Assembly (NCBI GenBank): GCA_946407465.1
Contig: CAMJOD010000006.1
Location: 1 to 36,658 of the forward strand
DNA from: an uncultured Clostridia bacterium
GTDB lineage: Bacteria; Bacillota; Clostridia; Oscillospirales; Acutalibacteraceae
Reading direction: 5' to 3'
Length of the DNA: 36,658 nucleotides
The translations under genes and the position numbers were made by a program. This document shows, piece by piece, positions 30,950-36,658 of this stretch (position 1 is the first letter of the stretch; every line of letters begins with the position of its first letter). Under the pieces are notes generated by a model that worked only from the letters and a program-made list of their open reading frames with translations, made no database searches and had not been told where the DNA came from.

Positions 30950-31128
30950 CCTCTGCTTCAAATCCGTAAGAGCAGCGCTGCTTCTAAAACAAATGTCATT
31001 TACTTTTCAAAATAATTCAACTGTATTTCATATAGTTTTCACTTTTTGGGATTATAGTAATGACAACATAAAAAATGCACTTACCGCTAACGCAGGTTAG
31101 CTTGCTAAAGCGCAGGAGGAGGATTATT

Positions 31129-32772
31129 ATGTCAGACAAATTCTATGATTTTGAAAATTTTGAAACCAATCCCGAGACCGAAGCTAACAAAAGCAAGGAA
31201 ATCGGACAGGAATATGAAAAGACTGTTGAATCGGCAAAGACCGTGCAGCCTGAACAAACGGAGCAGCCCGCAGAGGAAAGCTCCTATGAATGGAATCCCG
31301 AAAACCCCTATCGCGGCGGCGAGTACCGTTATTCCTATATCAACGGCAACAACCAAAACGCCGCGCACAATCCCAACAACTATGAAGACGCCTATTCCTC
31401 GGTGAGAACCGAGGCGACCGCCGACAGCAGCGGCTACACCGAGCAGAGCAATCCCTACAGCAGCAGCTACACCGGCGGCGTGAACAATGACAACACGCGC
31501 GTCTATAACTACGGCACGCCTGTGCAAAAGCAGGATGTCAAGCCGCAGTCTGCCAAAAAGAAGTCCAAGCCCGCGTCACGCGGCTTTGTGGCGGCGGCAC
31601 TCGCCATTGCGGTTGTCGTTGCGGCAGGCGCAGGCTTCGGCGGCGGTTATCTGCTCAGCAAGAGCACAGGCGCCGCACCGGCTGCGTCCGGCACCATGAC
31701 CATCAACCGGGTAGCGGCGAGCAGCGGCGAGAGCACCACCAACGCGGCTTCGTCCGATACAACGCCCGTCACCACCTCCGACATTGTCAAAAAGACCGCC
31801 AACAGCGTGGTCGAGATTGCCACCGAGGGCATCAAGACCGGCACCTTTGCCCGTCAGTATGTCACCAAGGGCGCAGGCTCCGGCGTGATTATCTCGGAGG
31901 ACGGCTATATCGTCACCAACCATCATGTGATTGACGGCGCGAGCAAAATCACCGTCACCCTGCGCGACGGCTCCACCACCTACGAAGCCAAGCTGATTGG
32001 CAGCGACGAGGACAACGACATCGCGCTGCTCAAAATTGAGGCGACCGGCTTGTCGCCTGCTACCTTCGGCAACAGCAGCAATCTGGTAGTCGGTGACTAC
32101 GTTGTCGCAATCGGCAATCCGCTCGGCACGCTCGGCGGCACCGTCACCGACGGCATCATCAGCGCACTGGCGCGTGAGGTCACGATTGAAAACAAGAACC
32201 TCACCCTGCTCCAGACCAACGCCCAAATCAGCCCCGGCAACTCCGGCGGCGGTCTCTTTAACGCCAAGGGCGAGCTGGTCGGCATTGTCAATGCCAAGGA
32301 CAGCGCCACCGAGGTAGAGGGCATCGCCTTTGCCATTCCCGTCAACAAGGTTGTGGACATTATCCGCGACCTGAAGGATTACGGCTACGTGACCGGCAAG
32401 ATTGACACCGGCATGCGCTTTGTTGACATCAGCTCCTACGACACCGCCTTCTATTACAACGTCAACGCGCTCGGCGTCTATGTTCTCTCGGTAGACCAGG
32501 GCTCCAAGGCGGAGGCGGCAGGCTTCAAATCCGGCGACATGATCACCGAGGTCAACGGCACCTCCGTTTCCACCGAAGCCGAGATTGAAAAGGCGCTCGA
32601 GGGCAAAAAGGTAGGCGATACCGTCACCTTCACTGTTCTGCGCAACAACCGCCAACAGAACCTCACGCTGGAGCTGACCGAATACGTTCCCTCCGTCAAG
32701 CCCAACAACGAGGACTCACAGGAAGAATTTCATTCCAACGACAGCCTTTGGGATCAGCTTTTGAACTGGTAA
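31129..32772 (+). CDS. HtrA/DegP-type trypsin-like serine protease with PDZ domain, membrane anchored
   Basis: 'TNHHVIDGA' (His), 'DNDIALLKIEA' (Asp), 'SPGNSGGGLFN' (Ser), PDZ domain; one TM after a disordered N-terminus. Confidence 0.95.
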   Translation: MSDKFYDFENFETNPETEANKSKEIGQEYEKTVESAKTVQPEQTEQPAEESSYEWNPENPYRGGEYRYSYINGNNQNAAHNPNNYEDAYSSVRTEATADSSGYTEQSNPYSSSYTGGVNNDNTRVYNYGTPVQKQDVKPQSAKKKSKPASRGFVAAALAIAVVVAAGAGFGGGYLLSKSTGAAPAASGTMTINRVAASSGESTTNAASSDTTPVTTSDIVKKTANSVVEIATEGIKTGTFARQYVTKGAGSGVIISEDGYIVTNHHVIDGASKITVTLRDGSTTYEAKLIGSDEDNDIALLKIEATGLSPATFGNSSNLVVGDYVVAIGNPLGTLGGTVTDGIISALAREVTIENKNLTLLQTNAQISPGNSGGGLFNAKGELVGIVNAKDSATEVEGIAFAIPVNKVVDIIRDLKDYGYVTGKIDTGMRFVDISSYDTAFYYNVNALGVYVLSVDQGSKAEAAGFKSGDMITEVNGTSVSTEAEIEKALEGKKVGDTVTFTVLRNNRQQNLTLELTEYVPSVKPNNEDSQEEFHSNDSLWDQLLNW

Positions 32773-32803
32773 GCTTTCTTTAAAGAATTTTATATAGATA
32801 ATC

Positions 32804-32837
32804 AAAACCACTGCGGATTTCGGTTCGCAGTGGTTTT
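32804..32837. terminator. Bidirectional intrinsic terminator between convergent genes
   Basis: AAAACCACTGCG (32804-32815) / CGCAGTGGTTTT (32826-32837), perfect 12-bp arms, T-runs on both strands. Confidence 0.88.
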
Positions 32838-32854
32838 GGTTTTAAATAAAACAT

Positions 32855-33475
32855 TTATACACTTGTCAATAAAAAATAGGGGATAGAGGTCTCCTGCGTT
32901 TTCAGATAGGCAATCAGGCTGTTGCGGTTCTTTTTGACGTGGGGAGGCACCGGAAACGTCTCCTGATGTTCGCCGTCGTCGTAGACGATTTGCTCGTTTT
33001 GCGCGTCATAGTACGCCTGAATCATAATGTGCCGCGGCACACCGTTTGCCATGCCGTTCACGTGGTGCTCCAGCAGCAGAATATTGCCGGAGCTTTCCTC
33101 GGGCTCTTCCTGTTCCTTTGGCAGCTTTTTTTGAAACACAGCGCAAAACGCATCTTTGTCGCGCAGATTGTGAAACAACAGCTGACAGCGTGCCGACGGC
33201 AGCCGCAGCCGCACGTCTTTTGCGTTTTCCTTGCTGTACAGCCGGACGTCCTTTAGCTCAAAATCCATCGCTTCGCGTTTTGTTTGGAGCAAAAGACGGT
33301 CGTCGTCCGTCACCGTGACAACGCCCTTGTCCTTGTACTCCGCAGAGCCGTCCTTCGCGTCGCCCGACGGCATAACGGCGACCGCGCATTTGAGCTGCAA
33401 AACAGCCGCGCTGCCGGACTCCTTCATCCTATTGTCAGCCTGTCGGCTTTGTTTTCTTCTTTTTATACCAAACAT
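32855..33475 (-). CDS. Hypothetical protein, possible PH-like fold
   Basis: ~206 aa; no catalytic motifs recognised; bounded by a bidirectional terminator; start taken at MFGIKRRKQ. Confidence 0.65.
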   Translation of the reverse strand: MFGIKRRKQSRQADNRMKESGSAAVLQLKCAVAVMPSGDAKDGSAEYKDKGVVTVTDDDRLLLQTKREAMDFELKDVRLYSKENAKDVRLRLPSARCQLLFHNLRDKDAFCAVFQKKLPKEQEEPEESSGNILLLEHHVNGMANGVPRHIMIQAYYDAQNEQIVYDDGEHQETFPVPPHVKKNRNSLIAYLKTQETSIPYFLLTSV

Positions 33476-33661
33476 AAAAAACCTCAACTTTTGATTAGTG
33501 CTGAAAAACCGGCGGTAAGATTGATTAGCTGTTCAGGACAAAAACGTTGTTTCTGCATGACTCGGGATAATAGGGTGAATTAAAGGCACATATTCATACT
33601 TTATAGCTTATGCCGACAACAGTTTTTACAAATAATAACGTTATTTGTCACAAACTACTCC

Positions 33662-33862
33662 TCATTTTTTAGAATTAATCTCTCTACCGATAGCTGTTAC
33701 AAGAACTATTCCTGCTAAAGCGCCTATTCCTTCAAGAGTATTTCTAATGGCATATGCATGTTTATTTCGGCATGCTTCGCAATACCTATGTTTATAGCCG
33801 CTCGGCAGAACCTTTTGACATTTCTTATTCTTACAAACTCTTTTACCGGACTTGTTTTTCAT
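33662..33862 (-). CDS. Small zinc-ribbon plus single-TM protein (66 aa), unknown function
   Basis: 'CKNKKC...YCEAC' CX4C/CX2C pairs, TM 'LEGIGALAGIVLVTAIG'; AAGGAG RBS; ATGA overlap with upstream gene. Confidence 0.7.
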   Translation of the reverse strand: MKNKSGKRVCKNKKCQKVLPSGYKHRYCEACRNKHAYAIRNTLEGIGALAGIVLVTAIGREINSKK

Positions 33863-34881
33863 TTTTTCTTTCTCCTTTTTCGCTTATTCTCTAATAGTTT
33901 TGTATTGGGTTCACTTGGAAGTTGTTTTATCTTTTCGCTAATTTCAGGCAAGGTGTTTGACCAGTAATTTTCAGGTGAAGGATCAATCGAATCTAATCTT
34001 TGAATCAGTCCCGGAACAGATGTATATGTATCTTCGATAAAGCTCGCATAGTAAGTGAGACTCCTTTTTGCCGCCTCATGCTCTCCAAGCTCCTGATAAG
34101 CCATAGCTTCTGCAAATGAGACCATATTTACTGCACATAGACTCTCACGTATTTCACTCATTTTACTGTTGATTTCCTCAGGTTTTGCCCCAGAAAATAT
34201 CTTTTGAAAAGTATTTTCGCGTTGACCTTTGATAAAATCGACATTGCTTTTCTGGCTCAGCATTAGGAGATTTCTACTGTCCTCGGCTGCTGCAACTAAC
34301 TGTATTAGCGCTATAGCTTTCAGCTCAGGGTTTTTAATGCTAATCGCTTGTAGTAATTTCTGCTGACAGCTATATGCTGTTGCCAATCGATCATGTTCTT
34401 GTCCCATTCGCACTTCTTCGACTGCGAGTTGAACTGATTGTATAGCTTCAGCAATCTGCGCCATTTGCATTTGAGTAGAAAAATTCGTCATAGCCTGAGT
34501 AATCTCTGGTGCCACTTTTACGGATTTAAGCGGAATAGTAGCCACGATTTTTTGCGTTTTTGGATTGATAAGATTTGCCATAAGAGAGCCATCTTTTTTA
34601 GCCATTAATTTAAGGGCTCCTTTGGCAATCTGCAGTTTCTGCTTATCCGTTAACACCGCTTGCAGCGTCACATCCGGAATCGCTGCTTTTACTGCGTTAA
34701 TAAATGCCGGTGCAGTGTATAATGCTTTCTCTATTTTAGAAAAGGCTGTTTTTGCGCCTATAAACAGGGGCTTAGCAACTTCTGGTAACTGTCCAAAAAC
34801 TGCTGACAATTCTTCATTAAATTCAGATGTATCAATTATTTCTATGTTTTCAGGTGGATTGACGATTGATTCTCCGGTCAT
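33859..34881 (-). CDS. Hypothetical 340-aa predominantly helical protein with Lys/Arg-rich C-terminus
   Basis: Long uninterrupted ORF in AT-rich DNA; 'AEAIQSVQLAVEEVRMGQEHDRLATAYSCQQKLLQAI' helical core; RBS GAAAGGA; ends KRKRRKKK. Confidence 0.75.
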   Translation of the reverse strand: MTGESIVNPPENIEIIDTSEFNEELSAVFGQLPEVAKPLFIGAKTAFSKIEKALYTAPAFINAVKAAIPDVTLQAVLTDKQKLQIAKGALKLMAKKDGSLMANLINPKTQKIVATIPLKSVKVAPEITQAMTNFSTQMQMAQIAEAIQSVQLAVEEVRMGQEHDRLATAYSCQQKLLQAISIKNPELKAIALIQLVAAAEDSRNLLMLSQKSNVDFIKGQRENTFQKIFSGAKPEEINSKMSEIRESLCAVNMVSFAEAMAYQELGEHEAAKRSLTYYASFIEDTYTSVPGLIQRLDSIDPSPENYWSNTLPEISEKIKQLPSEPNTKLLENKRKRRKKK

Positions 34882-34948
34882 ATCAAAAAAATCCTTTCAC
34901 GATAGTTTTGCAGTGAAACTTATTTTTGTCTTTGTTATTCTCTATATG

Positions 34949-36310
34949 CTAATAAACTATTGACAACAGCGCAACACTCTCCACATGCGCCGTCCTCGGG
35001 AACATATCCACCGGCGTGACCTCCACCGTGCGGTAGCCGGCGGCTGCAAAATACTGCAAATCGCGGGCGAGGGTCGCCGGGTCGCAGGAGACGTAGACAA
35101 CGCGGTCGGGCGACATGCTGCCGATGGTCTGCACCAGCGTTTCGCCGCAGCCCTTTCGCGGCGGGTCGAGAATCACCACATCCGGCCTTGCGCCCTCTTG
35201 CGCAAGCTGTGCGGCGGCTTGCGGCGCGTCGGCACACAGAAAGCGCGCGTTGCATATACTGTTAACCGTGGCGTTGTGCTCCGCGTCGCGCACCGCGTCG
35301 GCGATTATCTCCACACCAATCAGGCGCTTGCAGTCCTTCGCCATGCTCAAGCCGATAGTGCCGGTGCCGCAGTAGAGGTCGAGCAGCGTTTCGGCGCCGG
35401 TCAGCGCGGCGTATTCTCTCGCCTTGGCATACAGCCGCTCCGCCTGTGCGCGGTTGACCTGCCAAAAGGAGAAAGGCGAAATCGTAAAGGTCAGTCCGCA
35501 GAGCTTGTCCGTAATCACGCCGCCGCCGTAGACGGTGCGGTTTTTTCTGCCGAGAATCACGTTTGTTTTTTCTCTGTTGGAATTAATAAGCACGGTTTTG
35601 AGGTTCGGCAAGCCCTCGCGCAGCATGCGCACCAGCAAATCCTCCTGCTTTAGTCCGTTGCCGTTGACCACATAGCAGACCATCAGCTCGTTTGTGACCT
35701 CGCCCAGCCGCATGTAGAGGTGGCGCAGTCTGCCCTTGCCGGTCTGCTCGTCATAGATGTCGTTGTCCGTCTGCGCCAGAAATTCGCGCGTGATGCGCAT
35801 CACGTCCGCAAAGCAGGCAGGCTGCAATGCACAGTCGGCGCAGTCGATAATGCGGTGGCTGTGAAAGGCAAAAAAGCCCATTACCGGCTTGCCATTCTTG
35901 CCGGTTCCGACGGGCAGCTGCGCCTTGTTGCGGTAGCGCAGCACACGCTCGCTTGCGATAATCGGCTTGACAGGCGCGTCGATGCCGCCGATACGCGCCA
36001 CGGCGTCCTGCACCCTTTGCTGCTTGACGCGGCACTCCTCCTCATAGGAGATATGCCGCCACACGCAGCCGCCGCACTGCGCAAAATGCGGACAGTCGGG
36101 CGTGATTCTCGCGGCGGCAGGGGAGAGAATGCGCTCAATCTTGCCGAATGCGTAGCTCTTTTTTACTTTTAAAATCCGCACCTCCAGCCGGTCGCCGACT
36201 GCGGAAAGCGGCACAAAGACCGCCATGCCGTCCTCGGTTTTGCCGACGCCGCTGCCTTCGGCGGTGGCGGAGGTGATGTTCAGATGAATGACGTCGTTTT
36301 TCTTGAGCAT
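34949..36310 (-). CDS. rlmD: TrmA/RlmD-family 23S rRNA (uracil-C5) methyltransferase
   Basis: N-terminal TRAM domain, Fe-S cysteines 'CPHFAQCGGCVWRH', 'LLDLYCGTGTIGLSMA', 'VILDPPRKGCGETLV', 'VYVSCDPATLARDL'. Confidence 0.93.
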   Translation of the reverse strand: MLKKNDVIHLNITSATAEGSGVGKTEDGMAVFVPLSAVGDRLEVRILKVKKSYAFGKIERILSPAAARITPDCPHFAQCGGCVWRHISYEEECRVKQQRVQDAVARIGGIDAPVKPIIASERVLRYRNKAQLPVGTGKNGKPVMGFFAFHSHRIIDCADCALQPACFADVMRITREFLAQTDNDIYDEQTGKGRLRHLYMRLGEVTNELMVCYVVNGNGLKQEDLLVRMLREGLPNLKTVLINSNREKTNVILGRKNRTVYGGGVITDKLCGLTFTISPFSFWQVNRAQAERLYAKAREYAALTGAETLLDLYCGTGTIGLSMAKDCKRLIGVEIIADAVRDAEHNATVNSICNARFLCADAPQAAAQLAQEGARPDVVILDPPRKGCGETLVQTIGSMSPDRVVYVSCDPATLARDLQYFAAAGYRTVEVTPVDMFPRTAHVESVALLSIVY

Positions 36311-36362
36311 ACAAAATTCCCTTTTAGAAATAAAGATAGATTAATTGACCGTATCTGTCTAT

Positions 36363-36391
36363 ATTCTACCATTATCGCGCCGGTTTGGCAA
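36363..36391 (-). promoter_or_regulatory. Sigma-A type promoter of the methyltransferase gene
   Basis: On - strand TTGCCA (36391-36386), 17-bp spacer, TAGAAT (36368-36363). Confidence 0.65.
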
Positions 36392-36414
36392 TAAAAGAGG
36401 TGCAAAATTAGGTA

Positions 36415-36443
36415 TTTATTTTTTTGCCGGTTTGGCGTATAAT
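36415..36443 (+). promoter_or_regulatory. Sigma-A type promoter of murC
   Basis: TTTATT (36415-36420), 17-bp spacer, TATAAT (36438-36443). Confidence 0.55.
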
Positions 36444-36470
36444 AATATTTAAAGCAGTAACAAACTGGAA

Positions 36471-36658
36471 ATGGAGTGCGTTTTTTTGGATTACGACAAG
36501 CTTTTAAACGAAATAAAAAGAATACATTTTATCGGAATCGGCGGCAGCGGCATGTGTCCGATTGCGGAAATTCTGATGAGCGAGGGCTACAAAATCTCCG
36601 GCTCCGACATGAACGAGGGCGAAACGCTCGACAAAATGAAGGGCTACGGCATTCCCGT
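36471..36658 (+). CDS. murC: UDP-N-acetylmuramate--L-alanine ligase, N-terminal fragment (runs off window)
   Basis: '[55 protein letters not shown]'; start ATG 36471 or in-frame TTG 36486 (GGAG at 36473-36476 fits the TTG). Confidence 0.9.

Follow-up and report, generated by a model that had tools for sequence, protein, structure and literature searches.

A mobile pair of overlapping genes, often found beside restriction and other defence genes, is a probable anti-phage module

Introduction

What is the role of a compact, AT-rich pair of genes that sits between GC-richer neighbours in the genome of an uncultured Clostridia bacterium? A sequence-only reading of the 36,658-nucleotide stretch of DNA that carries the pair (hereafter the window) had described it as a compact, coupled accessory module of horizontally acquired appearance and had put forward a defence, toxin-antitoxin or phage-exclusion cassette as a putative function. 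To address this question, we compared both genes and their products with family libraries, other bacterial genomes, plasmids, viral contigs and known protein structures, and we analyzed the genes that surround them elsewhere.

Results

The two genes lie on the minus strand, as had been described. The first gene, P1 (33859..34881), encodes a soluble, mostly helical protein of 340 aa, and the second, P2 (33662..33862), encodes a basic mini-protein of 66 aa that combines a zinc-type knuckle, one hydrophobic helix and a KK tail. The stop codon of P1 and the start codon of P2 overlap in the sequence ATGA (33859..33862, minus strand), which makes translational coupling likely, and comparable overlaps or abutments of both genes are found in relatives. 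On one side the pair is flanked by an rlmD-type gene (34949-36310), and on the other by an orphan ORF of 210 aa (32855-33487) for which a search of 80 genomes of the genus yielded no relative and Pfam, NCBIfam and PADLOC no match; both flanking frames are also on the minus strand. The fall in composition and codon usage below the flanks that the sequence-only reading reported is borne out by our values. GC content is 0.396 in P1 and 0.363 in P2, compared with 0.603 in rlmD, 0.571 in htrA and 0.54 in the window, and third-position GC is 0.326 and 0.269, compared with 0.775 and 0.749 in rlmD and htrA.

DNA similarity to relatives spans positions 33712-34907, which corresponds to both genes and a leader of about 26 bp immediately upstream of P1 (34882..34907, minus strand), and stops there. 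Because the similarity is confined to this segment, the module consists of the two genes and the short leader only, and its conservation in relatives argues against a chance pair of ORFs. No flanking direct repeats marking an integration site of the cassette were found, and an Rfam scan returned no RNA element. The AT-rich palindrome that had been pointed out downstream of P2 (33628..33648) does exist, as a perfect repeat with 8-bp arms and a shuffle frequency of 0.017 in that intergenic stretch, but it is not a T-tailed terminator and lies outside the conserved segment, so that we give it little weight and regard it as probably outside the module. Relative to rlmD, htrA is found on the side of the cassette in the window and, in four relatives, on the opposite side, beyond murC; the stretch 31075-36658 thus appears to be rearranged near the cassette.

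The presence of the pair is sporadic. P1 was found in only 2 out of 60 genomes of the genus (the window's own included), compared with 50 out of 60 for rlmD, and the pair is therefore not vertically conserved at this locus. In drawn samples that also include the window's own genome, P1 occurs in 8 of 391 class genomes and 4 of 399 phylum genomes. A scan of species genomes yielded 29 loci with best segments of 59-83% identity; most of them belong to Lachnospiraceae, other Clostridia and lactic acid bacteria, and the closest relatives (83%) are found in Lachnospiraceae. A tree likewise places the window's P1 beside the Lachnospiraceae copies and not beside the other copy of the genus, with deep forks that are weakly supported. 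Although an rlmD-type gene also lies upstream of the pair at one other locus (L011), the neighbourhood of rlmD was considered as an ancestral home and rejected, since the Lachnospiraceae copies to which the window copy is closer lack rlmD and since other members of the genus carry rlmD without the pair. The start of murC is divergent from rlmD at nearly all loci examined.

Copies of the pair are further carried by plasmids, with homologues in Lactococcus, Lactiplantibacillus and Enterococcus, and by viral or prophage contigs. Scans of viral contigs with the distant lineages added one new full pair (L054). Prophage-type surroundings were seen for the copy at L033, which follows lysis genes, and for that at L020, which has a terminase gene as its neighbour. 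The phage GenBank collection contained no direct P1 match; one distant match (H6) lies in a record that is labelled as phage and carries bacterial-looking genes. In the record OR846597.1 ('Enterococcus phage Efs 1-1-1', locus L053), the stretch read includes a GmrSD-Pycsar defence cluster and bearers of a bacterial look, namely a ClpB-like gene and the end of a GTPase that resembles an elongation or release factor; the record may therefore derive from a bacterial contig and not from a phage. Judging from the sequence comparisons, the pair is an accessory cassette that has spread horizontally among gut and dairy bacteria, in line with the earlier view of the locus.

P1 and P2 form an obligate, overlapping pair. 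In all intact loci that we examined, P2 comes immediately after P1 or overlaps it, so that the conserved co-occurrence for which the sequence-only reading had called is found well beyond the window. In the class sample of 391 genomes, all six strong matches to P2 fall in genomes that carry P1, and the weaker P2 matches of this sample lie mostly within larger frames. The pairing is retained in P1 homologues down to about 20% identity, and L124 and even the very remote homologue L126 (E = 4e-4) are followed by a small gene with zinc-type Cys/His residues and a hydrophobic stretch. The lineage of L040-L043 and L054, which has an extra N-terminal zinc ribbon, likewise has a small P2 downstream. 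The copies without an intact pair are broken: that of genome G377 is truncated and lies beside a transposase-like gene (L039), and that of L025 is interrupted. In spirochaete assemblies (L026-L030), a truncated P1 that comprises the C-terminal half occurs together with P2. At L026 this half is fused in frame to P2 in a single frame of 240 aa, which counts for little because the copy has decayed. At two loci, a gene of about 510 aa from a shared family directly follows the pair (L010:7205-8758 and L014:7206-8729) and may be an occasional third gene; that of L010 has no Pfam or PADLOC match.

The cysteine pattern and single hydrophobic helix that had been noticed in the 66-aa protein are real and conserved in relatives. 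The knuckle of the window's P2, CKNKKC...CEAC (residues 10-31, 33770..33835, minus strand), follows a pattern of CX4C or CX2C and then CX2[CH] that is kept in all lineages, although in L034 and L035 the first knuckle Cys lies upstream of the annotated start. The Cys/His spacing alone suggests that the knuckle binds zinc. Searches of P2 against families returned zinc-finger matches only, all sub-threshold, and among the PADLOC-DB 2.0.0 models PDC-M24A alone was matched (0.026), over the zinc region. The Gly/Ala-rich hydrophobic helix (residues 41-59, 33686..33742, minus strand) has a 19-residue Kyte-Doolittle mean of 1.51, and the corresponding stretch ranges from 1.2 to 2.6 across 28 P2s, some of which (1.2-1.5) are borderline in hydrophobicity for a membrane helix. 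All 28 P2s carry a net charge of +8 to +16. P1s are mostly acidic (n = 15), and none of the 15 contains a segment of transmembrane grade (best 19-residue Kyte-Doolittle mean of the window's P1, 1.28). The hydrophobic stretch and positive charge of P2, together with the absence of such a segment from P1, suggest that P2 is the likely membrane component of the pair, and P1 and P2 may bind each other by charge.

P1 belongs to no family in Pfam, NCBIfam or PADLOC. It gave a sub-threshold match to TPR_8 in Pfam and a weak match to the PHROGs family phrog_31650 (E = 1.7e-7 over residues 50-287), which is itself without assigned function. Neither P1 nor 15 of its homologues matched a PADLOC-DB 2.0.0 HMM at E <= 0.01 or an anticodon nuclease or NTPase domain in Pfam, and scans of Pfam, NCBIfam and the PDB assigned P1 to no known housekeeping family. 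A PDB sequence search with P1 returned nothing significant. A wide P1 profile resembled PDB entry 9wwz, 'Dandelion', in three weak colinear stretches (E = 0.039, not significant), a likeness that we treat as a lead only; a literature search for a paper on 'Dandelion' found none.

Conservation extends over almost the whole of P1, with a mean column identity of 72% in a 24-row alignment of close homologues. The basic tail KRKRRKKK that had been highlighted is present in the window's P1, but it is confined to the closest relatives and is no feature of the family. We modelled the window's P1 and the approximately 21% identical P1 of L054 with AF2; both models are of low confidence (pLDDT 61 and 60, respectively) and predict the same order of elements. 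Helices are followed by a predicted three-stranded beta element (residues 90-117, 34531..34614), in which a TGE...TGK-like motif is kept across lineages in an alignment of distant homologues, then by a long helix predicted with low confidence (residues 125-161, 34399..34509), and finally by a helical C-terminal part (residues 165-320, 33922..34389; all on the minus strand). The C-terminal part, seen in the alignments and in the models, is the better modelled half and contains a conserved [DN]R.A...S motif and a TPR-like AY.ELGE.EAA stretch.

When we searched these models against 350,542 PDB chains with Foldseek, JukB (9jht) ranked first for both, with E 0.009 and prob 0.99 for the window's P1 and E 0.055 and prob 0.84 for the L054 P1, neither of which is significant, and with TM values of 0.26-0.37. 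JukB is a defence effector that assembles into tetrameric pores on the vesicle of early phage infection (PMC13282480). Because the two models have most of their alignment rows in common and the scores are not significant, we consider this likeness a lead. No sequence similarity between P1 and JukB was found, and the partners of the two proteins differ: that of JukB is JukA/YaaW (DUF3944), whereas that of P1 is the 66-aa zinc/transmembrane protein, which has no DUF3944/YaaW match in Pfam. A fold search against BFVD gave low-TM matches only. Three plasmid-borne neighbours of YaaW were tried as JukB candidates, and none of them matched 9jht.

The genes that surround the pair in other genomes lend independent support to the putative defence role that had been proposed from the window. 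A recognised defence gene adjoins the pair in about 19 out of about 36 independent contexts (hand count). The neighbours were scanned against Pfam and PADLOC, with the first 20 genes picked by eye; 32 unpicked neighbours gave only a few more matches to candidate families (e.g. PDC-S15 and PDC-S48) as well as generic ones. In a control, 32 other genes gave only cross-hits in PADLOC, the strongest at 3.8e-35, compared with about 1e-38 to 0 for the defence neighbours. Type I restriction-modification (RM) genes adjoin the pair on plasmids (L034 and L035, and with DUF262 at L049), and at L040 the genes for the type I specificity and restriction subunits, hsdS and hsdR, enclose the pair. Type III RM genes are found at the plasmid loci L050 and L051, and the end of a type III Res gene precedes the pair at L126. 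McrBC occurs at L121, a type II RM system with an IS in between at L122, and at L124 an McrC gene overlaps P1 by ATGA. The plasmids on which distant copies of the pair adjoin RM genes include lactococcal ones.

Beyond these, the pair is preceded by HEC-05 / GmrSD at L010, has Gabija GajA/GajB upstream and two GmrSD genes downstream at L006, and has HEC-05 (GmrSD) upstream and Pycsar PycC/PycTM downstream at L053. Other neighbours are Tiamat TmtA (L016), mREase_IV (L014), the Mrr-type PDC-S02 (L005), PDC-S11 (L012), AbiU/AIPR after a ResIII gene (L054), AbiEi/AbiEii (L022) and a gene with an FRG domain (L033). The window copy adjoins no recognised defence gene, its neighbours being rlmD, the orphan ORF and htrA, and about half of the contexts elsewhere have no recognised defence neighbour. 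By eye, a macrodomain-like gene lies directly upstream of the pair at two related loci (L015:4885-5892 and L017:4947-5942), and a downstream gene at L043:2879-3774 looks TIR- or DUF4062-like, with no match in Pfam or PADLOC.

Discussion

Given that known defence genes lie beside the pair in about half of its contexts, we consider it probable, judging from gene content and neighbourhood, that P1 and P2 constitute a mobile two-gene anti-phage module that the family libraries searched do not describe. If the role is indeed defence, a membrane is the somewhat favoured target; for action through a membrane overall, we see even chances. We propose that P2 would be the membrane component and P1 a partner that responds to infection and binds P2, controlling or recruiting it. 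As long as the cell is uninfected, P2 would be kept harmless by P1, although we hold such restraint to be slightly less probable than its absence. Once infection is sensed, or once a restriction system beside the pair is found to be disabled, the complex would permeabilise a membrane and halt the infection, probably as abortive infection. The order of these events is a guess, and the membrane step draws on the features of P2 and on the JukB lead; P1 itself might also enter the membrane, by analogy with JukB. Taken as a whole, this best explanation, a mobile anti-phage module whose P1-P2 complex permeabilises a membrane, may be right or wrong with roughly equal probability.

Two alternatives partly refine this explanation, and the confidences that we attach to the various readings therefore overlap when summed. 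One is that the pair acts as a fail-safe for restriction, staying silent while the adjacent restriction enzyme works and firing when a phage disables that enzyme. PrrC, an anticodon nuclease, acts in this way beside the type I system EcoprrI, and prrC sits in the type I operon between hsdS and hsdR, which is the slot occupied by the pair at L040. The pair also directly follows type III genes (L051, L126), McrC (L124), McrBC (L121), GmrSD (L010, L053) and mREase_IV (L014). In contrast to PrrC, no nuclease or nucleotide-binding domain was found in the pair, and its partners are unrelated enzymes that span all restriction types (I-IV) as well as Gabija, Tiamat and Pycsar, a diversity that speaks against a single specific contact between proteins. 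Moreover, many copies have no restriction neighbour, and the embedding in or beside an RM operon that is seen at L040 and other loci is not seen in the window. We thus regard the fail-safe as unlikely, and we hold equally little confidence in its broadest form, a widespread, undescribed defence family that would pair a zinc-knuckle membrane mini-protein with a soluble helical sensor, serve as a general fail-safe for every class of restriction-type system and convert failed DNA restriction into membrane collapse. The other refinement would make P1 a JukB-like pore-forming effector on a phage-derived or cell membrane, with P2 as its membrane recruiter. The first rank of JukB for two such divergent models speaks for it, and the non-significant scores, the low TM values, the lack of a PDB sequence match and the lack of a match between P2 and the JukA sensor family speak against it, so that on the modelling we give it a similarly low probability.

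In a plain toxin-antitoxin system, P2 would be a small membrane toxin and P1 its antitoxin, addiction would maintain the pair, and any effect on phages would be incidental. A compact, overlapping and mobile pair that resides on plasmids, with an obligate adjacent small gene encoding a basic, Gly/Ala-rich hydrophobic mini-protein beside a mostly acidic soluble partner, fits this description; however, the conservation of P1 over nearly its full length in 24 homologues goes beyond the apparent need of an antitoxin, and the association with defence islands is strong. We therefore think that this explanation, too, is improbable. Least probable in our estimate is superinfection exclusion, in which the pair would act at the membrane to keep incoming DNA out, in the service of the prophage or plasmid that carries it. 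The copies in prophage-type stretches (L033, L020) and on plasmids would suit such a role, but many copies are chromosomal, and many have restriction and Abi genes, not lysogeny modules, around them. Only a little more credible is an accessory function outside defence, with the pair as a mere passenger of hypervariable islands: such islands gather unrelated genes, and the window copy has ordinary neighbours, yet hitch-hiking alone could hardly account for about 19 independent cases of a defence gene next to the pair, often in an operon-like layout.

The pair is undescribed relative to Pfam, NCBIfam, the PADLOC release of 2023 and PHROGs, and the term is valid for these sources only, because the comparison covers systems up to the PADLOC release of 2023. 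The pair may be identical with a system published later, notably with one of seven lactococcal plasmid systems of 2024 (Rhea, Aristaios, Kamadhenu, Flidhais-2, Audmula, Rugutis and Hesat, as cited in PMC13335696), which share with the distant copies of the pair a location on lactococcal plasmids.

If P1 and P2 do act in phage defence, they would represent a new family that is spread over the genomes, plasmids and prophages of Firmicutes and occurs in decayed form in assemblies of gut spirochaetes. The pair is found on dairy and enterococcal plasmids, where phage resistance is of practical importance. The 66-aa P2 would bring a zinc/membrane protein of very small size into the range of known defence components, and the repeated siting of the pair beside all restriction types raises the question of whether it may serve as a general back-up when restriction fails.
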